Assembly: GCA_950295325.1 (NCBI GenBank) | Contig: OX485809.1 | Coordinates: 6,760,001-6,824,000 of the forward strand | Direction: 5' to 3' | Origin: Polytrichum commune | Taxonomy: Eukaryota > Streptophyta > Polytrichopsida > Polytrichales > Polytrichaceae | DNA length: 64,000 bases | The notes under the pieces: generated by a model | What the model was told of the DNA's origin: nothing | The model's input: the letters and a program-made list of their open reading frames with translations, nothing else | The model's database searches: none | In this document: positions 15,658 to 64,000 of the stretch, in pieces | Layout of the letters: every line of letters starts with the position of its first letter | How positions within the stretch are numbered: the stretch's first letter is position 1 | Position numbers and translations under genes: made by a program

Positions 15658-16425
15658 TCAAATCAATTTATTGATTTTTGCAAGCCGCACGATGCTCTTA
15701 TATACATTGTCGCGGGGACTAAGCGCGGCGTTGCCGATGGGGTTGGACCTAACAAAATCGGGGATGCTCCCGGGGTGGAGCACTAGCATTCTAAGATAAG
15801 GTGCTAGCTTATCGACCAAAAAGGTATCTTTCCTATCGCCGGTCCAAGTGTCGGGGAAGACGACGGTGCCCGGGGGATTGAGGACGCTCTTCGTTGGGCT
15901 GTCATCGACGAGGAGGGTGTTCTCCGGCGTAGGCCAGTGTCCATGGGGGACCCCCTCGAGAATGGGGATGCCTTGCCACAACCTGGACCGGAGGACCTTG
16001 AGGAACTGTTGTCCCCCTCCTCGACCGCTGAACTTGGGCACGGGAAACCCCTTCTCGTCGACTAGATCGTCGCACGCATCTTGGCCGAGGACGAGGCATG
16101 GTCTCGGGAGGCCACGAAAGAGGAAGTCGACGATGGCCTCCGTGTTCTCCATGATCATGGAGCTCCAGACGACCACGTGAAAGAGGTCGAGCACCTCTTG
16201 AAGGAAGTCCCGCACGCCTGGACGGGCGCGGACGGCCTTGCGGTTTATCAGAGTGTCGAGCTGGCCGTCGTAGTCCATCTCGTCGGGTTGGCGGAAGGAA
16301 CGGGTGGGGACCTTGGGGATGTGTTGGGTGTGACACAACACCCCGTTAAGGTCAAGAACCAGGAAGGGCTTGTGACGGGTCTGAGGCCCACTCGCCGACG
16401 GGTTGCGATTTAACTTCGTGGGGTC
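15658..16425 (-). CDS. NIF/FCP1-type HAD-superfamily phosphatase (C-terminal exon)
   Basis: This exon begins at 16,425 after TTAATCACAG and encodes 255 residues to a stop at 15,658. It shows the FCP1-homology order. Motif I is FLVLDLNGVLCHTQ, in place of the usual DxDxT. Next comes ARPGVRDFLQEVLDLFHVVV with SSM of motif II, then TLLVDDSPTK of the C-terminal motif. Family members dephosphorylate phosphoserine in nuclear targets such as the RNA polymerase II tail. The second Asp of motif I is Asn here. Plant NIF-like proteins with DLNG are known, so catalysis may be altered or lost. The 5' exon or exons were not found; the region just upstream is filled with palindromes. The region lies 75 bp from the CAA tract and is convergent with nothing. 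Confidence 0.75.
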   Translation of the reverse strand, partial: DPTKLNRNPSASGPQTRHKPFLVLDLNGVLCHTQHIPKVPTRSFRQPDEMDYDGQLDTLINRKAVRARPGVRDFLQEVLDLFHVVVWSSMIMENTEAIVDFLFRGLPRPCLVLGQDACDDLVDEKGFPVPKFSGRGGGQQFLKVLRSRLWQGIPILEGVPHGHWPTPENTLLVDDSPTKSVLNPPGTVVFPDTWTGDRKDTFLVDKLAPYLRMLVLHPGSIPDFVRSNPIGNAALSPRDNVYKSIVRLAKINKLI

Positions 16426-18669: not shown

Positions 18670-19104
18670 AAACAAATGAGAGTGGGCTTACCATGGCCGC
18701 ATACAAAAACTTGCTGCCCCCGTATACGCTGTACACCGTCTCTCCATGGGTTGTCAAACTCTGGAGAATGGATATGTAGAATTCCAGCCTGAGTTCAACT
18801 GCGGGAATGACAGTAAATAACATCTCCTGGAATAGATCTTTGGGAGGTGGGTGCGGGATGTTGTATATCTTCTTGAATACATTGCTAGCCTTGATAGGGA
18901 CCCTCCCATCCCTTAGCTGGTTGAAGGTCAGGAAGACGAGGCTGACTGCTCCCACCTGCTTGTTTCCCCTGGCCTCGTTGATTACAACGATCCCTTCTGT
19001 CTTGGCGGGAACATAGGTGCTGTGGTAAATACTGTACTCGAACTTGATGGTCTTCTCGTACAGTTCCAGAATTTCCGACAGCCTCTCGTGCTGGACGACA
19101 CTTG
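17041..19104 (-). pseudogene. 3' part of an unknown multi-exon gene interrupted by the 44-kb insertion
   Basis: The exon at 19,104-18,692 begins at the insertion boundary and reads VVQHERLSEILELYEKTIKF, then ITYN-like hydrophobic and Pro-rich stretches, ending FLYAAM before GTAAGC. After a 223-bp intron, the exon starting at 18,468 opens MLGLVVNSYLDATDEKEYKR. It carries Ser/Pro-rich segments, an acidic patch (DVSDEDEGDMDI), and a coiled-coil-like helix of about 55 residues (AELNSKLEQKMKEEMAATQE onward). A TAG at 17,332 interrupts the frame, which then stays open through an acidic tail (DLGGDEDEADLIEQTQ) to a possible donor at 17,041 (GACGAG before GTAACT). No domain is recognised. Its upstream half is at 63,382-63,989. 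The composition suggests a nuclear or regulatory protein, but this is weak inference. Confidence 0.6.
19101..19104. other. Left copy of the CTTG target-site duplication
   Basis: CTTG directly precedes the left inverted end and recurs at 63,382-63,385 directly after the right end. Keeping a single copy restores the interrupted exon's frame. A GT/AC pair at the junctions means the duplication could also be counted as 2 bp. Confidence 0.75.
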
Positions 19105-19150
19105 TATGTGAGCGTAGAGCGTAGAGCGGAGAGCGGAGAGCGTAGATAAA
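19105..19150. repeat. Left terminal inverted repeat with AGAGCGG-type tandem units
   Basis: Seventeen terminal bases match the right end perfectly. Four to five 7-8 bp units follow (TAGAGCG, TAGAGCGG, AGAGCGG, AGAGCGT). Short subterminal tandem motifs of this kind serve as transposase-binding sites in several plant DNA transposon families. Confidence 0.85.
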
Positions 19151-20233: not shown

Positions 20234-23200
20234 CTAGGAAGTAGATTGACTCAAGAGACCTCCCTCCATGATGAGTTTGACCTCATTGAAACTAAATGTC
20301 GGGGCGTGTATGAACAAATTCACTTCCGCATCCAAATTAGAAACCTTGACGAAGATGTAATACAGATGCTTACAATTCATATAAGAATTTCGTTTGCAGC
20401 CGAACTTGGAAATCATATCCAAGAAGTAGGCACAGTTGCACTCTGGAAGAGAACTCACTGTCACTTGGTAGATGGGTGGTTGGGGTTCTGATTTGGACTG
20501 CAGTGTGATAATGCAACCAAATCCCGGTTGAGGGATCATAGTTAACTTCAGAACAGTCGCATGCATAGCTTCAGCAGAGGCCACCATCTGCCTCTGCTTT
20601 GCCGAAGGTGCGCTGCTGGATCGCCGAACAAGCTTGGACAGTCTTGTGGTAGGGATGAAGTCGGGGTTTTCTGGAACACGGATTCGAGACATATCCAGCG
20701 GGGTCGCAGAGTTGGTGAAGAGTCGAGTCGGTGTGATGCGCTCCTTTGGTGGGAGTTGAAAACCTGCATTCTCAAGCGCAAAGATCTCCGAGCGGGTGAG
20801 GTTGGTACCAATCTTCACGGGCCAAATTGGGAGAATAGGTGGCTTCTAGTCATCAGCAGAGAACGGCATGACCCATTTCCGACGAGGGCCCTTGACGCAA
20901 CGCTCGATGTCGTCTGGACAAAAGACGAAGTCAGTGCGCTTCATAGATTGGAGTTTATAGTGATGCCACATACCGGTGTAGGTGGGCGCAGGGACGCTCT
21001 TGTTATTGGTGACGATTCTTGCGGTGCACTTCTTCTTTGTGCCCGCATGATTAGCCCAACAAGACTTCCCAGAGGTATAGGGTATGCGGGCAATATGCCA
21101 AAGAGAGACATCTACTTTGGTTTCTTGCACGGCGGTGACACGCTGGAAACCAAGTCCTGCAGGTAAAGGTACTTGAACCTCTTGTACAGAGGGGGAAGAC
21201 TCCTCAATGATAGTAGGCAGTGTTTCAGGTTGAGAGCGAGTGACTCGCTTACCGGGGGGAGGGCGAGAGAAGTTCACGGTATCCGGACGGTGGGTTTCGC
21301 CATCATCACCAATTGGAGTGTCGGGTCTTCGCTTCTGCGATCCAAACACCTCGGCGCCCTCAAGGTGTGGATCACGAGTGCAAAACTCTTCCCCACCGGG
21401 CATGTCAAGCAAGACCTTCTGCAACATTGTGGGGTCGCCAATACGTTGAGCTCGACGTTGAGCACCCCTGAGCTTGAGTTCTTCTTTGCTTGGACCGTCT
21501 CCGCCAATTCCACCTTTAAGGAACTGGTAGTATGCAACAACTTGTAAGAAGGCCCGAATGTAGTCGTCCACCGTAGCCACGTATAGATCTCCACCCTTGT
21601 TGCCGGAGGCTTGAAGCCACTTGTTGTGGACGGATTCCGCAAGATTGCAAGACAGCATCTCGGCCAACTGGTCTTGGGTTAAAACCTTTTCCTGATTGGA
21701 GAAATGAAGTGTTAGAATAGGCACAGAGAGAGGAAACCGAAACCATGAAGAACCAAAAATGAATCATGAAGGAGATGTACCAGTTCCATGAAACCACCCC
21801 ATTGAAGGTAGCGGAAGTGCCAGAAAGCAAGCCAGAGCTGAAGATGCTTGAGACCGTCCTCACTCGTACAATTCGATGACGCCCACCAAGCCTTGATAGC
21901 TAGGTACCTAGTCTCCGCCTCTTGCATAGAGGAAGCATTCCGATATTGAAGGCAAAGGTGTCTATGTTGGTCTTGTAAGTCATGCTTTATATACGATTTT
22001 GTATGCTTTTCGAGCGATTGTTTCCAATGAAAAAAACAAGTGCGCTCACGACCCTCCATGGGAACTTTGGGATCCCCCGAACCATACACAATGCGAACAG
22101 CGTTCCAATTGGCTTGGGCACTGTCGGCCATGAAGCCTATAAAGTTTGGATGTGGGATACCGTGACGGGCCATGACGTGGTTGAGGTTCTGCCAGAAGAG
22201 AACTTGGGCATCCTTATCCTCGGATTGGAAATCACAACATGAAATGGTCATGACCCGTTGATAAGTCCCATCGTAAACATGAGCGGCCATGGTGGTCCAC
22301 CCTTTGACCCGCTTGACGTGATCGGACATCATCCAGGCATTCTCGAGGTCCCCACCCGGTTGCATCCGACGAACCAAATCCACACCACTTCCAGGACCCA
22401 CCTCCGACATCTTGAAGACGAACACCTTGTCGGTATCGTCACCTTGTCCTGGGAATTGGTTCCGTTGGACGTAAGCCCAATTGCTAACGCCCCGGAGCTT
22501 TGCGATGCCATCCATAACACCGAACCTCCGCAAATATTTGAAAGAGGTAACCTTAGAGCGAAGGTTGGGGGAATTCAACTCTCTACAACTCTCAAACACA
22601 GGTTCGAGCTCTTTCAAGGAGAGGAGACGTTGTGTGTCATTATTACCAGAAAGGAGGAAATCACCTACAATGTCCTTGCTGGCTTCGAGGACGATCTTGC
22701 TGTACGTGGCTTGAGGAGAACGGTCAACGTGCTCCTCGAGAAGTGCATTGATACGCTTACGGCTGTCTCTGCAGTCTCCAACCTTGACTGGATGTTGATG
22801 AGTACCGATATGAATGCAGGCTCTTTGGGAGGACTCCTTCCCATGGACGTAGAAGATTTTGGCATCGCATAGTGCAATGCATTTGGGAGGTTGTTTGCAG
22901 ATCCTGCAAACAAGAGTAGATCCGGATGGCACAATGCCAGAGAGAGGGAAAGGATCTTTAGTGAAACCTTCAAATTCCGTGTCGTTGACCTTAGATGCAC
23001 GATGGGGTCGTTGAAGGTAATCACAACTAGGGTTTTGGCATTGGAGATTGTCGCGCACCTCTCCATGAGGAGTGCCCGAAACACCATGGGCACAAGGGGG
23101 ACCCCGGAGTGACACCCGGGACTTGTGGCGCCGTTGGTGAGAGGGCCCAAGTGATCCTAGTGTGGGTGAGGGCCCCGGGCGTTGGGAACGCCTCCCACCC

Positions 23201-24855
23201 ACGGAGACTAGGATGCACAAGGGTAAGGCCATAAGCTATGCGTAGCTCATGGCGTGGTGATTCTAGGATGCTCAAGAACACCTCAATCGGAGGTGTGAGC
23301 TAGGAGTTATGGCCATTTGAGTGGGGTGCTGTCCCGGGACAGCGCCCTGGTACAGCGGTGCCTGGGAGTGATTCCCGGGACTGCCAAGGTTCAAACAGGC
23401 ATAACTTCCTCAAGACTTGCTCAAATGGAGCAAGTGAGGAGTTCATCGGCATCTACGTGAAGCGTAGATGAAGATGGAGTGGTTGGTTGTTATGATCAGA
23501 CATCATACAAGGAAGTTATGATGGTCTGAAGCTGCTGGGGGGGTTCTAGGCCCAGCAGCTGAAGGAAAATGTCCACTTGGCCCCAACTCTTGGTAGAGAG
23601 ACAAGAGGTTGGTTGACGGTGGGGTAGGGGCCCCGCGTGAAGTCCTAGAGGCTTATATGGGTGAGGTGGTGTGGCCTCACCCACCCGAGGCCGAACGGCA
23701 AGGCCTCCATGGGCTTTGGCCTATTGTGAGGCCATAGTTGCCTAGTATGCTTCGGGTTGTTGTAGTGTTGCTCCGGCAACGCGATGATCAACATAGGATT
23801 GGACTTCCATGGATGGAAGTCCACATTGGGGAAATGGGTTACCGATTAAGGGGTGAGTCCCGAAAGCAAAGTAGGAGGGTTGGTTCCCTCCTATGAACTA
23901 TTGGTCCGGGGTAAGAGGAGCTATCCATTAGCATGGCGGAATGCGAATGGTTAGCGCTCGTAACCTTTGCTAGAAACGAAAATTGGCAAGATTGTTAAGG
24001 GACCTAGCAAGGGTTGCGACAGAGATGGCCAACACAGGCAGAGGAACGAAAGGCAAGGCCAACGTCGTTTGTAATGTTGGTGGTTTGAGTCTTAGTCCAA
24101 ACATGGCCATCATATTGCTTGTCCATGCCGTCCAAGGACTTGGCCCTGGTTTGAGAGGAAGAGACTTCTGCTGCAGGGAGGACAAATAACTGGGTACCAT
24201 CGAAACGAGGGGGAAGGTGATTAACTAATTGGATTTGTAGTTTATCGTAATCTAATTTCTTGAGGACGTTCTTACTACCTGGCATAGAACCAAGATGACG
24301 AAGACATTGAACAATAGGTTGAGGAGGCTTGGACGTAGAGGGTATTGAAGTAGGTGAAGGCACAGAGAGAGAAGGAGAGGGCGTTACATAGGCAGGAGAG
24401 GGAAACAAAAGAGGAGAATCATAAACTGCTACATCTTCATGCTGAACTGGTCCATCTTCATTCGAAGAATCAGACAAGTCTATAACGTTGTCTAGACCAG
24501 GCTCGGTCTTGACACTTATTACGGGAGGGGTGCTAAAGGCAGCAGTGGATGATCGAAGAGGAGTAAGGATTTCTGTCGACACTCCGATCTGAGAATCTGG
24601 CCAGCCACATACCCTATACTTTCCCGCGGCAAGCTCCCAAACTACAATGCCATTGTCGGATACCTTGGAGGTCTCATGGAAGGTATGAATGAGCAATCCA
24701 GTATCAGGATGGAAGATCTCACGCTCTACCCATATTGTATTGGGTTTGAAAGAGAACCTAATGCTAAGATGAAGCTCGGAGACAACAGCAATACCTCGTG
24801 CATCAATGGGGAAAAGAATGGGGACCCCGATGCCATGGGAATGAAGTTCGGCCAT
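20234..24855 (-). pseudogene. MULE-type transposase with WRKY-GCM1-like and SWIM zinc fingers (disrupted)
   Basis: It reads leftward in four pieces. (1) From ATG at 24,855: a 250-residue N-terminal region with an acidic stretch and a Pro/Ser-rich linker, ending at YDGHVWTKTQ (about 24,100), the tryptophan strand of a WRKY-GCM1 finger. (2) After an interruption, from about 23,110 to 21,781: the Cys pair CQNPSC and the ACIHIGTHQHPV His strand. This is followed by a DDE core, with D at 22,270-22,272 (VYDGTYQ), D at 22,123-22,125 (FMADSAQ) and CFFH at 22,028-22,039, the CxxH seen in MULEs. (3) After an 89-bp intron, 21,691-20,846. (4) In the same frame past a TAG at 20,846: a SWIM finger, CNC at about 20,435 and CKH at 20,367-20,375. 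WRKY-GCM1 plus MULE plus SWIM is an established architecture for plant transposases. The third acidic residue was not assigned with confidence. Confidence 0.75.
23060..24020. mobile_element. Roughly 0.9-kb GC-rich insertion splitting the zinc finger (possible solo LTR)
   Basis: Between the tryptophan half and the cysteine half of the WRKY-GCM1-like finger lies about 0.9 kb of GC-rich, non-coding sequence unlike the flanking transposase. It contains short inverted words such as GGGCCCC and TCCCGGGA and a TATATG near 23,656. No splice sites in good context frame it. An LTR or another small insertion is more likely than an intron, but the exact ends and a target duplication were not resolved. 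Confidence 0.4.
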
Positions 24856-25112
24856 CACAGCGAGGGGGATGTGCAAAGATGGGAATGAGAAAGAGGATGC
24901 TGAAAAGTGTGGAATACTTATCCATTGTACATATGCTTTAAAAAGGGTAAACAATGAACAGTGACCAAAAATACCGTAAACCCTAAATCTTGAACAGTGG
25001 CACTATAAAGGTCTGAGAGGGTTGGGGAAGGGTCTTTTTGGGAGCGAAGGAAAGGGATGTTGAGAGAGTAAAGAGTACAAAAAGGGAAGCAGAGCGGAAC
25101 TGGGACGCACAC
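24856..25112. promoter_or_regulatory. Shared divergent promoter of transposase and ParB/methylase-like gene
   Basis: The 257 bp between the two start codons carries TATAAA at 25,004-25,009, 104 bases before the plus-strand ATG. A TTTAAA at about 24,937 is usable by the minus strand. A CCCTAAA word near 24,980 resembles a plant telo-box. One region may control both genes. Confidence 0.5.
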
Positions 25113-52200: not shown

Positions 52201-54883
52201 ACTTAGATTCCGAGAGGCTAGGCCTTTCAAGGGTCATGGACCAGATTTCGCATTGTTTTGAATGTTTGAGTTAGCACTTAGATTCCGAGAGGCTAGGCAC
52301 TCAAGGGTCTTGGACCAGATTTTGACTTTGTTGTGTATGCTTGAGTTAGCACTTAGATTCCGAGAGGCTAGGACCTTTCAAGGGTCATGGACCAGATTTC
52401 GCATTGTTTTGTATGTTTGAGTTAGCACTTAGATTCCGAGAGGCTAGGCATTCAAGGGTAATGGGCCAGATTTCGCATTATTTTGAATGTTTGAGTTAGC
52501 ACTTAGATTCCGAGAGGCTAGGCACTCAAGGGTCTTGGACCAGATTTTGACTTTGTTGTGTATGCTTGAATTAGCACTTAGATTCCGAGAGGCTAGGCAC
52601 TCAAGGGTAATGGGCCAGATTTCGCATTGTTTTGAATGTTTGAGTTAGCACTTAGATTCCGAGAGGCTAGGCACTCAAGGGTCTTGGACCAGATTTTGAC
52701 TTTGTTGTGTATGCTTGAATTAGCACTTAGATTCCGAGAGGCTAGGCACTCAAGGGTAATGGGCCAGATTTCGCATTGTTTTGAATGTTTCAGTTAGCAC
52801 TTAGATTCCGAGAGGCTAGGCACTCAAGGGTCTTGGACCAGATTTTGACTTTGTTGTGTATGTTTGAGTTAGCACTTAGATTCCGAGAGGCTAGGCATTC
52901 AAGGGTCTTGGACCAGATTTTCGCTTTGATTTGAATGTTTGAGTTAGCACTTAGATTCCGAGAGGCTAGGCCTTTCAAGGGTCATGGACCAGATTTCGCA
53001 TTGTTTTGAATGTTTGAGTTAGCACTTAGATTCCGAGAGGCTAGGCACTCAAGGGTCTTGGACCAGATTTTGACTTTGTTGTGTATGCTTGAATTAGCAC
53101 TTAGATTCCGAGAGGCTAGGCACTCAAGGGTAATGGGCCAGATTTCGCATTGTTTTGAATGTTTGAGTTAGCACTTAGATTCCGAGAGGCTAGGCACTCA
53201 AGGGTCTTGGACGAGATTTTGACTTTGTTGTGTATGCTTGAGTTAGCACTTAGATTCCGAGAGGCTAGGCATTCAAGGGTCTTGGACCAGATTTTCGCTT
53301 TGATTTGTATGTTTGAGTTAGCACTTAGATTCCGAGAGGCTAGGCCTTTGAAGGGTAATGGACCAGATTTCGCATTGTTTTGAATGTTTGAGTTAGCACT
53401 TAGATTCCGAGAGGCTAGGCATCCAAGGGTCTTGGATCAGATTTTCGCTTTGATTTGTATGTGTGAGTTAGCACTTAGATTCGGAGAGGCTAGGCCTTTC
53501 AAGGGTCATGGACCAGATTTCGCATTGTTTTGAATGTTTGAGTTAGCACTTAGATTCCGAGAGGCTAGGCATTCAAGGGTCTTGGACCAGATTTTCGCTT
53601 TGATTTGTATGTTTGAGTTAGCACTTAGATTCCGAGAGGCTAGGCCTTTCAAGGGTCATGGACCAGATTTCGCATTGTTTTGAATGTTTGAGTTAGCACT
53701 TAGATTCCGAGAGGCTAGGCCTTTCAAGGGTCATGGACCAGATTTCGCATTGAGTTGTATGTTTGAGTTAGCACTTAGATTCCGAGAGGCTAGGCCTTTG
53801 AAGGGTAATGGGCCAGATTTCGCATTGTTTTGAATGTTTGAGTTAGCACTTAGATTCCGAGAGGCTAGGCACTCAAGGGTCTTGGACCAGATTTTGACTT
53901 TGTTGTGTATGCTTGAGTTAGCACTTAGATTCCGAGAGGCTAGGCACTCAAGGGTCTCGGACCAGATTTTGACTTTGTTGTGTATGCTTGAGTTAGCACT
54001 TAGATTCCGAGAGGCTAGGCATTCAAAGGTCTTGGACCATATTTTCGCTTTGATTTGTATGTTTGAGTTAGCACTTAGATTCTGAGAGGCTAGGCCTTTC
54101 AAGGGTCATGGACCAGATTTCGCATTGATTTGTATGTTTGAGTTAGCACTTAGATTCCGAGAGGCTAGGCCTGTGAAGGGTAATGGACCAGATTTCGCAT
54201 TGTTTTGAATGTTTGAGTTAGCACTTAGATTCCCGGAGGCTAGGCCTTTCAAGGGTAATGGACCAGATTTCGCATTGTTTTGAATGTTTGAGTTAGCACT
54301 TAGATTCGGAGGGCTAGGCCTTTCAAGGGTAATGGACCAGATTTTGACTTTGTTGTGTATGCTTGAGTTAGCACATAGATTCCGAGAGGCTAGGCATTCA
54401 AGGGTCTTGGACCATATTTCGCGTTGATTTGAATGTTTGAGTTATCACTTTGATTCCGAGAGGCTAGGCCTTTCAAGGGTCTTGGACCAGATTTTGACTT
54501 TGTTGTGTATGCTTGAGTTAGCACTTAGATTCCGAGAGGCTAGGCACTCAAGGGTAATGGACCAGATTTCGCATTGTTTTGAATGTTTGAGTTAGCACTT
54601 AGATTCCGAGAGGCTAGGCCTTTCAAGGGTCTTGGACCAGATTTTCGCATTGATTTGAATGTTTGAGTGACCACTTAGATTCCGAGAGTCTAGGCCTTTC
54701 AAGGGTAATGGACCAAATTTTGACTTTGTTGTGTATGCTTGAGTTAGCACTTAGATTCGGAGAGGCTAGGCCTTTCAAGGGTCCTGGACCAGATTTTGAC
54801 TTTGTTGTGGATGCTTGAGTTAGCAGTTAGATTCCGAGAGGTTAGGCAATCAAGGGTAATGTCTAACTTTTCTTTTTGTGTAG

Positions 54884-57800
54884 GAGTCTCAAGCTATGGA
54901 TCTCATTCTCTCCGAGGATCCATCCACAGATGCCCATGTTCTTCAATTGGAGCCTGCCGAGGTGGAAGTTGATCCACTTGTCGATGTCCAACCGGGAAAG
55001 GTGTTCTCTATGTGAACTCTTCCTTTTGTTTCCAAGCACTCCCGGTACCTTGGCTTTCAATATATTTTGGGCTTAATCTCATATCTTTGTTTCCACCCTT
55101 GTAGATTGATTCACCTCATCAATCTGACCCCGTGCGTCCTCTTGATGAGTCTACTGCGGAGGAGACTGAGCTCGAGATTCGGAGATCCCAAAAAGAAGAC
55201 TCTATCGGTGTGATTCATAGGGTTCGCATCAAACCTCTTGCTAAGTCACATTTCTCTATTCCATTGTGCCGCTTGCAATGTCTTCCTCTTGTTCGCCCCA
55301 TCAGCAAGGTCGATGTTGCTCGGCTGCAAAACGAATTTGTCATGGGTTACCGTGACGGTGACCGTGCAATGTATGTCTCTCCCTACAACAACCTTGATGA
55401 GGTGCTTCTAGTTTCGGATGACATTCGAGCCTCCTGGAGTTCACTATGGCAGGAGTCTAGTGATGAGTTTGATTCCATGCTCGAGAAGGATTCCGACCTC
55501 TCTCAATTTGTTGGCAAGATGTTTTTCGTGTGAGAGGGGAATCATCGCTTGACGGCTTGGCTTAGACACATTAACAAGCACCATTCCATGGACAAAGATT
55601 GGCACATCTCCGTGGACTGCATTGTTGTCGACCCGAGAAACTGTGCTGCCGTCTTCCTTAATGCAATGAATGACATCAACTGGTAAGTTTGTTTTTGTTT
55701 GGGTTCTTATTGTTTGTTTTCCTTTCTCAAAATTTTTCATCTTTTGTTTCTCGCTTACTTATTCCTAGTAGGTCCACGGAGCACGACCATGTCAAGGACA
55801 ACCTTCCCGCCAAGCTCCTCCGCATTCGAACATTTGGGAAGATGAAACTTGAGGAGTTCAAGGACCTCATTTCTCCCCAAGACTACAAGACTTGCGAGGC
55901 CAAAATGCTAAAAACTCCAACTTGGTATCCTCTTACCTTGGACATATTCGTCAAATTCTTGTATAAGGTGATTCTCCCTCCCCTTCCTTTTGCTTTGATA
56001 GCCCACAAGCATGTGTTCATACTTGCCATCTTACCCTCCAAAGACAATGACATATATGGGCTTATGCCTTTCTTCTCTTCATTTCTGTCATTCATTTTCA
56101 CTTCTCTTTGTGTGTTTTAGAGAGAGATCTTGAACGCAGCCGACACTGCAGCAAGGTTGTACCGGGAGAATACACCCGAATCCCGCAGGTCAGCTACCGA
56201 AATTTGGGATACTATGACCAAAGCGCAAGAGAAACTCATCAAGAGTATTCGGACTCGAAATTTCGAGAAGTTCATTTCCGTCGCCCACAAGGATAATGGC
56301 GAAGACTTCTTCTATGAGGTGCGCCTCCGATTTGTTTTACTTTTGGCTTTCAACTTCATCTTTCATCCATTCTAGTTTCATCTTTCTTACACTCTCATAT
56401 GTTGCAGATTGACCGTCATTTTTCCACCTTCATGTACCCCGATATGACGATAGAAAAACTTCAAAAGGTGGCAACCACCCATGTCGATGCCTGTTTCAAA
56501 GCCAAGTGGCTTCGGTGGTGGAATTCTCCCGCCAAGGTCAAAATGGAAAATCAATTCCCCTCTTCTCTTCCTCTCCGTGAGAAAGTCCTTGACGACTGGC
56601 TTAACAAAGCTTCTTTTTGGGCACAGGTACATCTTCATCTTTTGTGTCTTCTTGTTTGTTAGTTTCTCTCATTTCCATATCTAACTGTTGGTCTCTCTTT
56701 ATATAGTTGGAGAAGGGCGTTGAGGCTGAGATTGCATCGTTTGAGAACGAGTTGTCCGTGGACATTGATTGGAATTCCACGGAGATTTTACACCCGTCCA
56801 ATTATGTTGAGCATTGGAGGCTCATTTTGTGGGACAAGGCTTTCCGGGTGTATTTTGAGGACAAGGCCGATTTAACATTTAGTAAAGGCCTTGACCTCTT
56901 CGAGTTCGACGAAGGCCCCATCGCCATCAAACGCGTTGCTTATTGGTACTCTTTTCCTTTAATTTTTTTCATCGCTTTCGTTTCCTTTCCACGGCAATTT
57001 TCTTACTCTATGTTTTCCATTTTCTAGGTACATTCACCGCGAGCTCTTTGTGAAGAATGTTTTGCCTCCTTCGTCCTTGCCCGCTTTCCTTTTGGAGTGG
57101 ATCGATGTCCACTCCAATCTTTGTGTCTATACGGCCATGCAAGTTGCAAAGTTTCCACCCTCGCACTTGAAGGAATGTGGTTGGTATTTGGATTGCTCTC
57201 GTGCATTTGTGCCCGATGAAGAAGAAGCCCTTTACGGCAGCCTTGTGAACTCCGGCCCCGACGTCATTGAATTGGATGAGGAGCCAGATGAACCTACTCC
57301 CGCTCCTCCATCGGTTGAGAAGGATGTTGCGCCCTTCAAGGGTAGAGGCAGAGGTAAGAAGGCTCTCGCCCATGCCTCTTCTCAAGTTTCCTCACGTTCT
57401 AATGCCAAGGCCTCCGTTCAACGCAATGTTCCTCCAGCCACCACCGTGGTTGGAAGTCCCACCGCCACTCCATCTGCCGCCCTCGCCAATCCGGTAGTTG
57501 CTCCTTCTCATAGCGGTGTAACCATTCCATCTGTGCCTCGCAAGCGGAAGGCTGTTGCACCTGATACGTCGGCAACTTCCTCCGACATGTCATCTTGCCA
57601 TTCTTTGATTGAGAATGTGGACATGGGGGAGCTCATTGAGGATCTCATGAAGACCAAAGTTCCACCTCCGGCCTACCGACGCATCCAAGACTTCCTAACA
57701 AAGGTTTGTGTGCATTGTTTTATTCTTTCATTCAATGTATTTCATCATTTTCTTATTTTTTGACTTTCTTTGCATTTTGACCTTTCAGGTTGGAGCGGGT

Positions 57801-59131
57801 CGTACTCGTCCAAACACCAAGCATAAGGTTCACACGGGCATTGATCTCCTGTTTGCAGATGTGCCCGAGAACCTACGTGTTCCGGGCATCACTTCCTCAT
57901 CCTCGGATGTTCCTCACTGGAACATCCGCTCAGCCACTTACTTCGAGGTTCTGTTTGCATTCGCGAATGCCAACCTTCATGACGATGGCGTCCTCGTCTT
58001 TGCGCATGCTGCCGATCCAGAGGTTTCGAGATCAATTCATAACTGGGCTCACACAGAGGATTTCTATGTTGCCGAGGACTGGTTCGGCATGAGCGACCTC
58101 GATCTTCAATCTCCCTCTAATCCGTCTGAACTGGTACTTCTTCTTGGCCTTCATCCATTTTCATTCATAGTCTTTTTGTTTTGTTCTTGTTTTCCTAACT
58201 CTAGCTTTCACAATTTGCGCAGACTCGGAAATTTTTCATCAAGGTACTTGTGCGGAACCGGTCCGTTTTGAATGTCCGCACGTCGGACTTCATGGACATG
58301 GGCTACAATCTCAAACGAGATGATTGGCTCAACAACTTCACCGATTTGAAAAACCAATCCGTGAGGGTCGACGGGGTGTCTTGGAGAGGCGCCCGTGAAA
58401 AGCGTCCGGAATTTTTTTCGATCCTTTTCTCCGCCCTCACAGATAAGGACGACATTATATTGGATTGGCAGTGTGGTGTTGGTTCGTTCTTCTTCTCTAG
58501 TTTTTCTCATTTTTTTTCCTTTTGGATTTTTTGTTTTCATTTGTAATCGGTTGCTTATTCATTTCCCAATGCTAATCCCTTCGCATTTTGTTTGTTTAGG
58601 AGGTTCCATAATAGCATGCCGCTCCATTCAACGCCATATTGTGGCGCTTGAATCCGACATTGATGTCTTCAAGTCCATCCTCCTCCCCCTTCGCGAGCCT
58701 GACCAAGAACAAACCTCTCAACCCGCCGCCCCTCAACGAGGCTCCGTTTTTGCTCCTCTTCCTCGAAAGATGGCCAAGCGCAATTTCGATTTGCTCTGTG
58801 AGTAAGTTCGTTCGTTGATTCTACCTTGTTTTCCTTTGTATCTTCAAGTGTTTGACATAGATACATGTGCTCATGTTTTTTTCTTTTTTCATCTATGTAC
58901 AGAGTTCAAATTAAAAGCCCCATCCGCTTTCTTAATGCGGAGATTTTTGCAACGCCTTCGGCGACGTTCGAGCTCCCTCCTTATGCTTCAGAGCTTGCCC
59001 ATCGTTTGGCCGAAGCACCATCCCCACCTCCTAGTCGCATCCGGCCTTACAACAAACTAGTATTGGATTTCCTAGACATAGAGGCAGAGCAGGGCGAGGA
59101 AAGTGATAGACATAGTAGTCATAGTGGTTGA
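54884..59131 (+). pseudogene. ParB-like plus N6/N4 DNA methylase-like protein, exons 2-12 (one in-frame TGA)
   Basis: Exons: 54884-55000, 55105-55682, 55772-55967, 56121-56318, 56408-56626, 56707-56945, 57028-57703, 57789-58133, 58223-58481, 58600-58801, 58903-59131. All are GT-AG and in phase; with exon 1 they give about 1,200 residues. Exon 3 holds a ParB/sulfiredoxin-like core: RPISKVDVARLQ, then EGNHRLTAWLRHI, where GNHR matches the GxHR/GERR nucleotide-binding box. A TGA at 55,531 stands exactly before EGNHR, probably from TGG. A helical region and a Pro/Ala-rich linker (exon 8) follow. Exons 9-11 resemble a beta-class DNA methylase, with a motif IV-like LLFADVPENL followed by a motif I-like LDWQCGVGGS and IVALESD. 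DPPY is not intact, so methyl transfer is doubtful. ParB fused to DNA methylase is well known in phages and prokaryotes. Confidence 0.65.
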
Positions 59132-59266: not shown

Positions 59267-60490
59267 GCTAGCCTCTCGGAATCTAAGTGCTAACTCAAAC
59301 ATTCAAAACAATGCGAAATCTGGTCCAAGACCCTTGACTGCCTAGCCTCTCGGAATCTAAGTGCTAACTCAAGCATACACAACAAAGTCAAAATCTGGTC
59401 CATTACCCTTGAAAGGCCTAGCCTCTCGGAATCTAAGTTCTAACTCAAGCATACACAACAAAGTCAAAATCTGGTCCAAGACCCTTGAGTGCCTAGCCTC
59501 TCGGAATCTAAGTGCTAACTCAAACATTCAAAACAATGCGAAATCTGGTCCATTACCCTTCAAAGGCCTAGCCTCTCGGAATCTAAGTGCTAACTCAAGC
59601 ATGCACAAGAAAGTCAAAATCTGGTCCATGACCCTTGAGTGCCTAGCCTCTCGGAATCTAAGTGCTAACTCAAACATACAAAACAATGCGAAAATCTGGT
59701 CCAAGACCCTTGAATGCCTAGCCTCTCGGAATCTAAGTGCTAACCCAAACATTCAAAACAATCCGAAATCTGGTCCAAGACCCTTGAAAGGCCTAGCCTC
59801 TTGGAATCTCAGTGCTAACCCAAACATTCAAAGCAATGCGAAATCTGGTCCATGACCCTTGAAAGGCCTAGCCTCTCGGAATCTAAGTGCTAACTCAAAC
59901 ATACAAATCAATGCGAAATTTGGTCCATGTCCCTTGAAAGGGCCTAGCCTCTCGGAATCTAAGTGCTAACTCAAACATACAAATCAATGCGAAATCTGGT
60001 CCATGACCCTTGAAAGGCCTAGCCTCTTGGAATCTAAGTGCTAACTCAAACATACAAATCAAAGCGAAAATCTGGTCCAAGACCCTTGAATGCCTAGCCT
60101 CTCGGAATCTAAGTGCTAACCCAAACATTCAAAACAATGCGAAATCTGGTCCATGACCCTTGAAAGGCCTAGCCTCTCGGAATCTAAGTGCTAACTCAAA
60201 CATACAATTCAAAGCGAAAATCTGGTCCAAGACCCTTGAATGCCTAGCCTCTCGGAATCTAAGTGCTAACCCAAACATTCAAAACAATGCGAAATCTGGT
60301 CCAAGACCCTTGAAAGGCCTGGCCTCTCGGAATCTAAGTGCTAACTCAAGCATTCAATTCAATGCGAAATCTGGTCCATTAGCCTTGAAAGGCCTAGCCT
60401 CTCGGAAACTAAGTGCTAACTCAAACATTCAAATCAATGCGAAATCTGGTCCATTAGCCTTGAAAGGCCTAGCCTCTCGGAATCTAAGTG
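59267..60490 (-). repeat. Inverted 1.2-kb satellite array (about 16 copies of the 75-bp unit)
   Basis: The same unit as the main array, but in reverse complement (GCCTCTCGGAATCTAAGTGC). It has more single-base variants (CTTGGAATCTC, CGGAAACTAAG) than the main array. Together the two arrays flank the downstream exons of the ParB/methylase-like gene in inverted orientation. Confidence 0.95.
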
Positions 60491-60529: not shown

Positions 60530-61100
60530 TGGGTAGGCTCTCGGCTCCGAGAGGGTAATCCCTTGGGCTCTGGGACCAGATATTGTTTCAATGTGGGTGG
60601 TTACATGTTTGGTTGGGTAGGCTCTCGGCTAGTTAGTGTAGAGCCTTAGTTAGAGGGGCCAGATTTTGGATGAATGTGAAAGCCTTCATGTTCTGTTAGT
60701 TTAGGCTCTCGGCTAGGTAGTCTAAGGTCTTAGTTAGGGGGGCCATATTTTGGATGAATGTGAAAGCCTTCAAGTTCTGTTAGTTTAGGCTCTCGGCTAG
60801 TTAGTGTAGAGTCTTAGTTAGAGGGGCCAGATTTTGGATGAATGTGAAAGCCTTCAAGTTCTGCTAGTTTAGGCTCTCGGCTAGTTAGTTCAAGGTCTTA
60901 GTTATATGGGGCTATATTCTGGATCAATGTGAAAGCTTAGAGGTCATGTTTGTTTAGGCTCCCGGCTAGTTAGTGAAGGTCTTAGTTATAGGGGGCCATA
61001 TTTTGGATGAATGTGAAAGCTTCAAGGTTATGTTTGTTTAGGCTCTCGGCTAGTTAGTTCAAGGTCTTAGTTATAGGGGGCCATGTATTGGATGAGGGGT
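60530..61100 (+). repeat. 84-bp tandem repeat (about six copies)
   Basis: GGCTCTCGGCTAG recurs at 60,620, 60,704, 60,788, 60,872, 60,957 and 61,041. Each is followed by GGGGCCAGATTTTGGATGAA-like sequence. Shared words (CCAGATTTTG, CTCTCGG) link it to the 75-bp satellite and to the zone left of the main array. Confidence 0.85.
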
Positions 61101-61348
61101 TCATCATATGGTGGTCTAGCCCGGATCCTCTACTTGAGTTTTGATTCACCCCTTTAATACAAGGCAATCAAACCAAATATACTACCAATCATAGACACCT
61201 CACCTTTCTCCCTTTTCACATTAGACCCTTAACAAATGCAATGACTTGGGTAACTATATATCAGCCACAAATGGTTGCAAGCTCATATTCATGCAAGCGT
61301 CACTAAAGGTGCGTCTCTTGGCCTCTCTTCATGTTTTGTTTGCTCTTG

Positions 61349-62225
61349 AGTAGCATTTGGCTTGTGATTGTGAATTTGTTGGCTTGGACTTCAACTCTGA
61401 TCTTTTGAGGTTAGGCCAGATTATCAACTTGTGAGGTTCAATGGCCTTCAGTAGCATTTGGCTTGTGATTGTGAATTTGTTGGCTTGGACTTCAACTCTG
61501 ATCTTTTGAGGTTAGGCCAGATTATCAACTTGTGAGGTTCAATGGCCTTCAGTAGCATTTGGCTTGTGATTGTGAATTTGTTGGCTTCGACTTCAAATCT
61601 GATCTTTTGAGGTTAGGCCAGATTATCAACTTGTGAGGTTCAATGGCCTTCAGTAGCATTTGGCTTGTGATTGTGAATTTGTTGGCTTAGACTTCAAATA
61701 TGATCTTTTGAGGTTAGGCCAGATTATCAACTTGTGAGGTTCAATGGCCTTGAGTAGCATTTGGCTTGTGATTGTGAATTTGTTGGCTTAGACTTCAAAT
61801 ATGATCTTTTGAGGTTAGGCCAGATTATCAACTTGTGAGGTTCAATGGCCTTCAGTAGCATTTGGCTTGTGATTGTGAATTTGTTGGCTTAGACTTCAAA
61901 TATGATCTTTTGAGGTTAGGCCAGATTATCAACTTGTGAGGTTCAATGGCCTTGAGTAGCATTTGGCTTGTGATTGTGAATTTGTTGGCTTAGACTTCAA
62001 ATATGATCTTTTGAGGTTAGGCCAGATTATCAACTTGTGAGGTTCAATGGCCTTCAGTAGCATTTGGTTTGTGATTGTGAATTTGTTGGCTTAGACTTCA
62101 AATATGATCTTTTGAGGTTAGGCCAGATTATCAACTTGTGAGGTTCAATGGCCTTCAGTAGCATTTGGCTTGTGATTGTGAATTTGTTGGTTTAGACTTC
62201 AAATCTGATTTTGTGATGGTAGGTC
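61349..62225 (+). repeat. 101-bp tandem repeat (8.7 copies)
   Basis: AGTAGCATTTGGCTTGTGAT starts units at 61,349, 61,450, 61,551, 61,652, 61,753, 61,854, 61,955, 62,056 and 62,157, with only a few substitutions between units. It directly precedes the small F-box-like gene and may be part of its promoter. Confidence 0.95.
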
Positions 62226-62278: not shown

Positions 62279-62965
62279 ATGCCGTGGATAGGTAAGTTCA
62301 TTTGGCCCTACATTATGAAGTTCATTTTTGTTTGATTTTATAGCCACAACATTTGTGTTCAATCCACATTTGAATTGTGTTGGTTAATTCTGATTTAATT
62401 AAATTCTGGTTGTGTGTTTCAATGTGTTTCAGGGGGTAACGCGAAAACTCGCCGATTCGTTTTGGATGTGCCACACGTATTGCAGCTGGATTTAGATGTG
62501 CAGTTGTCCGTACTAGTGCCCAACTTAGTGTTGGGTGCCGCAAAAGATTTGATTGGCCGGGAGAGGGCATTTGATACCAAACGCCGTTTGGTTTTAATCG
62601 GGAAACTGCGGCTATGTTGCAAGGCTTGGAAGCGGATTGTGGATAGCACTGTGGAATACAATGCTCTTCGTCTGGCGGCGCATGAGTTTAGGATGGGTCC
62701 ACATGGGATGCCAGAGTTGTATTTGCCACGCGAGCATAACCTGGTTAAATTGTTTAAATTGAACTTCATGTTGTTTTCAGAGAGCCGGCACGTCACCTCG
62801 AGAATTTTCCAGAGGATTTTGAGGTCGGAGTTGGGGGATTTGTCTTTGCGGTCTTTGGCTAAGCTAAGGACTGAGCTGGAAGCCTCTTATGGTGCGGAGA
62901 ATATGTATGGCATGTTCTTTGGGCCATCTTGGCCATATTGGACATGCCCGGCAAATAGGGTGTAG
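62279..62965 (+). CDS. Small F-box-like protein, two exons
   Basis: Exon 1 (62,279-62,291) encodes MPWI and one base. After a GTAAGT donor and a TGTTTCAG acceptor, exon 2 (62,433-62,965) continues GGNAKTRRFVLDVPHVLQLD to a stop, giving 181 residues. Residues about 55-85 (RLVLIGKLRLCCKAWKRIVD) resemble the second half of an F-box, where a Cys-Lys-x-Trp core recruits SKP1 in ubiquitin ligases. The N-terminal half of the box is weak and no substrate-binding repeats follow. The rest (HNLVKLFKLNFMLFSESRHV) is unrecognised. The gene is intact, unlike the larger genes of the element, and sits about 0.4 kb from the right terminal repeat. Confidence 0.55.
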
Positions 62966-63310: not shown

Positions 63311-63332
63311 TTTTCCGCTCTCCAATCTCCGT

Positions 63333-63370
<38 letters not shown>

Positions 63371-63381
63371 ACGCTCACATA
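63311..63381. repeat. Right terminal inverted repeat with CCGCTCT tandem units
   Basis: About eight CCGCTCT units (reverse complement of AGAGCGG) end in CGCTCTACGCTCACATA, the exact mirror of the left end. Confidence 0.85.
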
Positions 63382-63385
63382 CTTG
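63382..63385. other. Right copy of the CTTG target-site duplication
   Basis: CTTG immediately follows the right inverted end and matches 19,101-19,104. Confidence 0.75.
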
Positions 63386-64000
63386 AGTTTCCCCTCTCGT
63401 GCTCGACAATCCATAGCCAAACGTGGGGCTCCCTCATGGCAGGAGATTTGTACTCCATGAACTTGGCCATGAATGGGTTGTAGAATGGCAGGTCCTTTGT
63501 CCCGCGGCTCGACGCACCCGGGATGCTCCTGAAATCGATCAGGGCAAATGGGCATCCCCGTCGGTCCTCCCTAACATCCGCCCTGGTGAAGCTACCATCC
63601 CACTTAGAGAATGTGGTCCTCTCCAGGCCGGTGGTGACAGTGCAAAACCTCGCCACTCCTTCGAATGTTGCTGTCCTCTTCCTCTCCAATTTTTTTTTAT
63701 AAAAGCCCACCTCCTGGGCATCCGTCTCGGACTTCTTAGTCCGTTTGTTGCCCTTCAGTTTCAAAGATGCGGCGTGCTCCCTGACCAGACTTCGCATTGA
63801 GGGGCCTCTAATATTAAAGGCTTGCTTGAACACCTTCCAGTGATTCCACTTCACGTCGCTGTCGACGTCGAAGATTTGGTATTGAGGTGCCAGTGCGCTC
63901 AATTCCCTCATTGCTGCTGTCTTCAGCTTTCGATGCTCGCACCACTCCTTGATGGAGTACGTCCCGGGCTTGTGCTTGGGTCTCTTCAAAAATATTTTTG
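63382..64000 (-). pseudogene. 5' part of the gene split by the 44-kb insertion (upstream exons outside the window)
   Basis: An open frame enters from the window's right edge and reads leftward: KRPKHKPGTYSIKEWCEHRK, later WNHWKVFKQAFNIRG, a basic segment (LKGNKRTKKSET, KKKLERKRTATF), DFRSIPGASS and PHVWLWIVEHERGNS. It then runs into the right terminal repeat and stops (AGT ATG TGA). The frame continues exactly into the exon at 19,104 if the insertion is removed. No Met start is seen, so further 5' exons should lie beyond 64,000. The product is unknown. Basic stretches and aromatic residues are compatible with a nucleic-acid-binding protein, but no motif proves it. Confidence 0.65.

Follow-up and report, generated by a model that had tools for sequence, protein, structure and literature searches.

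We analysed a 64,000-nt stretch of the Polytrichum commune genome (assembly GCA_950295325.1, contig OX485809.1, positions 6,760,001 to 6,824,000), referred to below as the window; all coordinates are window positions. Within it lies a 44-kb element carrying a spliced ParB-methylase-like gene (hereafter the ParB gene), whose product joins a predicted ParB-type domain to a domain of probable methylase descent. The computed evidence comprises the gene, the element, the ParB fold, homology to methylases, selection of the purifying kind and co-occurrence with a transposase-like gene. We regard the element as a large DNA transposon in which the ParB gene is the second gene, probably a helper.

The ParB gene and the element that carries it

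The initial annotation had proposed an intron-rich fusion gene at 55105..58801. The gene and its splicing are real, but the span was too short, and our model extends beyond it on both sides (Table 1). All introns are of the GT-AG type, 80-153 bp long and T-rich (50% T vs 27% in exons). A splice-acceptor-like AG at 54882-54883 leaves space for a further 5' exon; none was found upstream of 54896. The model contains a single stop, against a mean of 39 and a minimum of 26 in 300 simulations (Markov-1, same length), and we therefore reject a chance open reading frame (ORF) as the origin of the gene.

This stop is an in-frame TGA (55531-55533) immediately before EGNHRLTAW, a motif that had been correctly recognised but placed in exon 3 instead of exon 2, with no mention of the TGA. 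At this position, relatives carry a sense codon, which encodes W in 105/110. We fetched 20 copies of the gene from the genome, two of which, L032 and L034, are free of stops across all 11 exons; the window gene is therefore broken, and intact copies exist elsewhere. Over the codons covered, 14 of the 20 hold at least one stop and six hold none, several copies being covered only in part. We note that intron 3 of L036, L037, L038, L039 and L040 contains a 106-bp tandem repeat in 3-4 copies.

Carriage by a transposon, likewise proposed at the outset, is borne out by the termini of the element, its target-site duplication and the frame restored at the empty site. The 10-bp duplication CTCTCGTGCT occurs only twice in the window when both strands are searched, once at each element end. 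Joining the flanks 63404-63989 (-) and 18689-19092 (-) restores an open minus-strand frame that the element interrupts. Starting at the 12th base inward, the inverted repeats are 97% identical over 39 bp; because their outermost 11 bp match poorly, the exact left end (19093) rests on the target duplication. At the right end, copies are alike up to 63393 and their flanks diverge beyond. Ends and duplication were established in the window copy, the sole copy with both ends in reach. Both ends also contain a 7-bp microsatellite (GAGCGGA/GAGCGTA; 19110-19146 and 63314-63376), the length of which varies between copies at the right end.

A gene in several pieces near the left end is likely the transposase, judging from its position, its co-occurrence with the ParB gene and a zinc-finger-like pattern noted on visual inspection (CxC...CxH, SWIM-like, around 20366-20440). 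Target duplications of Mutator-like elements (MULEs) measure 8-11 bp, and the 10 bp observed here, in one copy only, fall within this range. We considered a MULE assignment, which is at most tentative, none of the transposase-like pieces having a Pfam match. In other copies, too, a counterpart of the ORF near the right end follows the ParB gene.

Regarding the surroundings, the C-terminal part of the interrupted host frame (VYSVYGGSKFLYAAM then LGLVVNSYLDATDEKEY) resembles by eye another methylase-like motif I/II, and in Pfam this frame matches only FecR_C (expectation value, E, 0.11). A NIF/FCP1-type phosphatase domain (E 3e-12) lies outside the element at 15658-16341 (-).

Table 1. Positions of the features in the window
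Feature	Position	Strand	Details
ParB gene (ParB-methylase-like)	54896-59131	+	11 exons; product of 1081 residues; one premature stop
Exon 2 of ParB gene	55105-55682	+	predicted ParB/sulfiredoxin-fold domain, GNHR motif
In-frame TGA, window copy	55531-55533	+	premature stop
Exon 8 of ParB gene	57789-58133	+	motif IV region, FADVPENL
Exon 9 of ParB gene	58223-58481	+	between-motif region plus start of motif I
Exon 10 of ParB gene	58600-58801	+	remainder of motif I; ALESD (motif II-like)
Whole element	19093-63393	.	44,301 bp; termini, target duplication, restored frame at empty site
Left target-site duplication	19083-19092	+	CTCTCGTGCT, 10 bp
Right target-site duplication	63394-63403	+	CTCTCGTGCT, 10 bp
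Left terminal inverted repeat	19093-19146	+	7-bp GAGCGNA units; outermost 11 bp match right end poorly
Right terminal inverted repeat	63314-63393	-	reads GGGAAACTCAAGTATGTGAGCG inward, similar in other copies compared
Transposase-like gene, several pieces	20234-24954	-	ORFs 24004-24954, 21712-23232, 20846-21724, 20234-20818
75-bp tandem array	26039-54861	+	385 copies, 28.8 kb; carries CCGAGAGG and CCAGATTT boxes
75-bp array, inverted orientation	59268-60490	-	16 copies
84-bp array	60618-61095	+	
101-bp array	61345-62223	+	
ORF near right end	62414-62965	+	weak F-box resemblance, E 0.015, below curated cut-off

A predicted ParB-type domain and a domain of probable methylase descent

Structure prediction gives the first domain, encoded by exon 2, a ParB-N/sulfiredoxin fold. 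Among the relatives aligning there, GNHR is conserved (G 106/110, N 108/109, H 105/108, R 93/107), and its G and R make up the G-x-x-R (GERR/GNHR-type) motif of the ParB/sulfiredoxin (Srx) superfamily, a nucleotide-site motif. On the predicted structure, exon 2 encodes a domain of this superfamily, in agreement with the initial annotation. Nucleotide-bound ParB structures are among the best structure matches, and Foldseek puts sulfiredoxin equally high. Searches of Pfam, NCBIfam, PHROGs and PDB sequences returned nothing useful for the ParB part, and a Pfam scan of the protein revealed no helix-turn-helix (HTH) domain. Canonical ParB proteins bind parS through such a domain, have CTPase activity and act with a ParA partner. 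For the methylase half, the structure model (P0121, which retains an intron and is without exon 10) is of low confidence (pLDDT 59). The outcome envisaged beforehand as a refutation, that neither half shows its proposed fold, was not obtained, the ParB/Srx fold having been found.

In the C-terminal domain, a motif IV-like FADVPENL (exon 8) precedes a motif I-like DIILDWQCGVGGSII that crosses exons 9-10, which is the permuted (beta) order described initially. Single matches are weak: CcrM (E 0.006), a PHROG methyltransferase (8e-4), PDB 5hfj/5hek (0.008; labelled DpnA by the sequence tool and M1.HpyAVI by the structure tool) and phage records (best E 2e-3), whose best 12 of 124 rows include eight annotated as methylases and one as a replication initiator. 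All of these fall on the motif I side of the domain. We further compared two profiles, one of the family (141 rows, reduced to 91 by filtering) and one built on YhdJ plus 84 relatives (85 sequences, from 130 loci fetched). Motif I-II aligned with a score of 38.3 (P 2.4e-5, probability 75%) and motif IV, aligned separately, with 25.2 (P 0.0023, probability 12.5%), whereas 60 column shuffles peak at 24.5 and 21.1, respectively. The two alignments are colinear with YhdJ, motif IV first. By sequence, exons 8-10 appear homologous to beta-class N6/N4 DNA methylases, with good support from motif I and modest support from motif IV.

The motif IV consensus of the relatives is F-A-D-[VI]-P-E-N-L (F 55/55, D 48/55, N 60/60). 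An aromatic residue in this motif is required by amino-methylases. Most relatives read D[VI]PE and not the catalytic (D/S)PPY type: where DPPY has its aromatic residue, 48/59 have E and 9/59 have K. Similarly, 17 of the 20 fetched genome copies read DVPE, L043 reads CPE, L044 reads NVPK and L049 ends before VPE. Residues on the side of S-adenosylmethionine (SAM) are retained in relatives (D 46/50, G 47/47, E of ALE 31/34). Catalysis is doubtful because DPPY has become DVPE in most relatives, and the sequences suggest that, in this lineage, the methylase half has lost its catalytic function.

These data bear directly on the proposal of an active N6-adenine or N4-cytosine methylase that, aimed by the ParB-like domain, would mark the element's own DNA. 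The conserved motif I region (D..CGVGG) and ALE acid are consistent with such an enzyme, as is the finding that, of the parts measured, exons 8-10 are under the strongest constraint in most diverged copies. Viral YhdJ relatives, moreover, vary at the second position of motif IV (DLPY, DIPY in L169, L178). For the algal proteins discussed below, a marking role has been suggested, and the Ectocarpus member is predicted to be of N4C/N6A type. The lost aromatic position argues against catalysis, and we consider methylation marking unlikely: the methylase ancestry assigned in the initial annotation holds as sequence homology, but its marking activity probably does not.

With exon 2 as query, 179 proteins were retrieved at E <= 1 (222 candidates), the best 120 of these being 49-96% identical, and with exons 8-10, 144 at E <= 10 among 427 candidates. 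The full-length protein gave no match at E <= 0.001. Many entries in the database are ORFs the size of a single exon, which is why exon-level searches succeed where the full-length search does not; the relatives' sequences inspected are of this kind, and often continue into introns. No relative was confirmed in viral contigs with exon 8 or with the exon 2 profile, in prokaryote genomes with the exon 2 profile, or in phage records for the ParB part; these searches therefore lend no support to contamination or to a recent capture from a phage or bacterium.

Genomic copies, selection and tandem arrays

Exon 8 matches at least 40 places across the genome (40 scored of 111 candidates). Ten places beyond the window match at 97-99%, which gives 11 closest copies. 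In 9/11, a match to the transposase-like piece 21820-22460 lies 6.7-43 kb upstream on the same strand, as counted within the best 40 of 618 candidate matches, and no such match within 60 kb of the 11 sits on the wrong side or on the wrong strand. The right-end fragment follows within 60 kb downstream in 7/11. A second transposase-like subfamily (e.g. C3:9952778, C3:9965483), 96% identical, accounts for 28 of the 40 listed matches, with 11 members having the right-end fragment 12-31 kb away. Contig C4 accounts for 19 exon-8 copies among the 40 scored, 18 of them at 80-84% identity, which suggests that exon-8 copies accumulated on one chromosome.

The ParB gene is under purifying selection across diverged copies. 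With L032 as reference, stop-bearing copies included and stop codons skipped, the ratio of nonsynonymous to synonymous substitution rates (dN/dS) in diverged copies is 0.09-0.23 for exons 8-10 (10/10 copies, L041-L050), 0.07-0.33 for exon 2 (measurable in 6/10), 0.25-0.64 for exon 7 (linker) and 0.14-0.34 for the whole gene at dS 0.2-1.0. For the close copies (L031, L033-L040, window), the ratio is 0.37-0.70 and is based on few changes.

Since transposons often carry captured genes, the ParB gene might be passenger cargo with no role in the life of the element, and 11 transposase-like copies indeed have a right-end fragment within 60 kb and no ParB-gene copy among the 40 exon-8 matches listed. 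However, those 11 may hold diverged ParB genes below the 40 scored matches. Purifying selection across copies whose whole-gene dS is 0.2-1.0 and the linkage to the transposase-like gene in 9/11 of the closest copies both speak against a passenger, to which we assign a small chance.

The arrays next to several diverged copies have CCGAGAGG in common, often as the palindrome CTCTCGGNNCCGAGAG, plus CCAGATTTTG. In a set of seven array units, picked non-blind after a prior look at units, CCGAGAGG occurs in 7/7 and CCAGATTT in 5/7, whereas 200 shuffles of these units place 8-letter words in at most 4/7; shared ancestry could account for the common motifs. Among 16 hand-picked units from the window and related loci, half (8/16) contain CTCTCGGNNCCGAGAG with at most two mismatches, four of them exactly, and the other eight do not. 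The 75-bp unit of the window holds only a half site of this 16-bp palindrome.

Tethering or array binding by the protein is possible and fits these motif-rich arrays. A ParB-like partition factor would go further: by nucleotide-dependent spreading from palindromic, parS-like array sites, it would hold copies at a nuclear site or cluster them. The predicted ParB-N fold, the nucleotide-bound ParB structures among its best matches and the palindrome are consistent with this model; the lack of an HTH in the Pfam scan and the equal Foldseek rank of sulfiredoxin count against it, and we judge it improbable.

Proposed role and known systems

We favor, with a probability of roughly 0.5, an element-encoded DNA-binding helper or anti-silencing protein that would act on the arrays. 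The methylase-derived domain, with its DVPE motif, would recognise DNA instead of methylating it, and the protein would load on the tandem arrays at their CCGAGAGG / CCAGATTTTG sites. Coverage of the arrays may then keep the element from silencing, or help join its ends. A more elaborate version is tentative: a bacterial methylase turned sequence-reading pseudoenzyme might, aided by a nucleotide switch of ParB type, cover the palindromic sites of the arrays over tens of kilobases. Such self-recognition, comparable to that at parS, would protect or mobilise a plant transposon, with sites and protein co-evolving between subfamilies.

The favored mode of action would resemble that of the VANC proteins of Arabidopsis VANDAL transposons, or of TnpA-type helpers. 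We know of no ParB or methylase domain in VANC, which differs in this from the present protein. VANC proteins recognise and bind a short motif, which is propagated through tandem repeats, and their action leads to a loss of DNA methylation (PMC5735166). As with VANC21, a non-transposase element gene is found together with short motifs that have built up in tandem repeats, and these repeats vary from one related element to another.

By domain make-up, the ParB gene belongs to the reported transposon ParB-methyltransferase accessory proteins. The transposon Sola1-1_Ec32 of the brown alga Ectocarpus encodes one of 1104 residues, a predicted N4C/N6A methyltransferase, and similar proteins of green and red algae are attributed to Iyer et al. 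2011 and Petroll et al. 2025 (PMC12477816). In both cases, the two domains share one protein, and its gene and that of the transposase (here a putative one) lie on opposite strands of a giant DNA transposon. By description, the present case appears distinct in its DVPE motif, 44-kb element, tens of kilobases of arrays, 10-bp target duplication and apparently plant host.

Like N4CMT of bdelloid rotifers, which PMC8885841 describes as an active captured bacterial amino-methyltransferase fused to a chromodomain that helps silence transposons, the ParB gene encodes a domain related to bacterial amino-methyltransferases in a eukaryote; unlike it, the gene is transposon-borne and motif IV is altered. 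YhdJ, CcrM and M1.HpyAVI share the order of motif IV before I and weak but consistent sequence matches, and differ in having DPPY for DVPE, no ParB-type fusion and no spliced eukaryotic gene. In the literature searched, we found no description of a plant protein of this kind, of one whose motif IV is altered, or of any tie to motif-rich arrays, and the accessible text of PMC12695648 does not mention land plants, mosses or bryophytes.

In sum, the ParB-methyltransferase transposon proteins reported in algae have a counterpart in an apparently plant genome, and this protein is kept by selection across diverged copies. The shared array motifs provide concrete candidate sites for binding, and close copies within one genome could, with long-read methylation data, separate the anti-silencing, methylation and tethering ideas.
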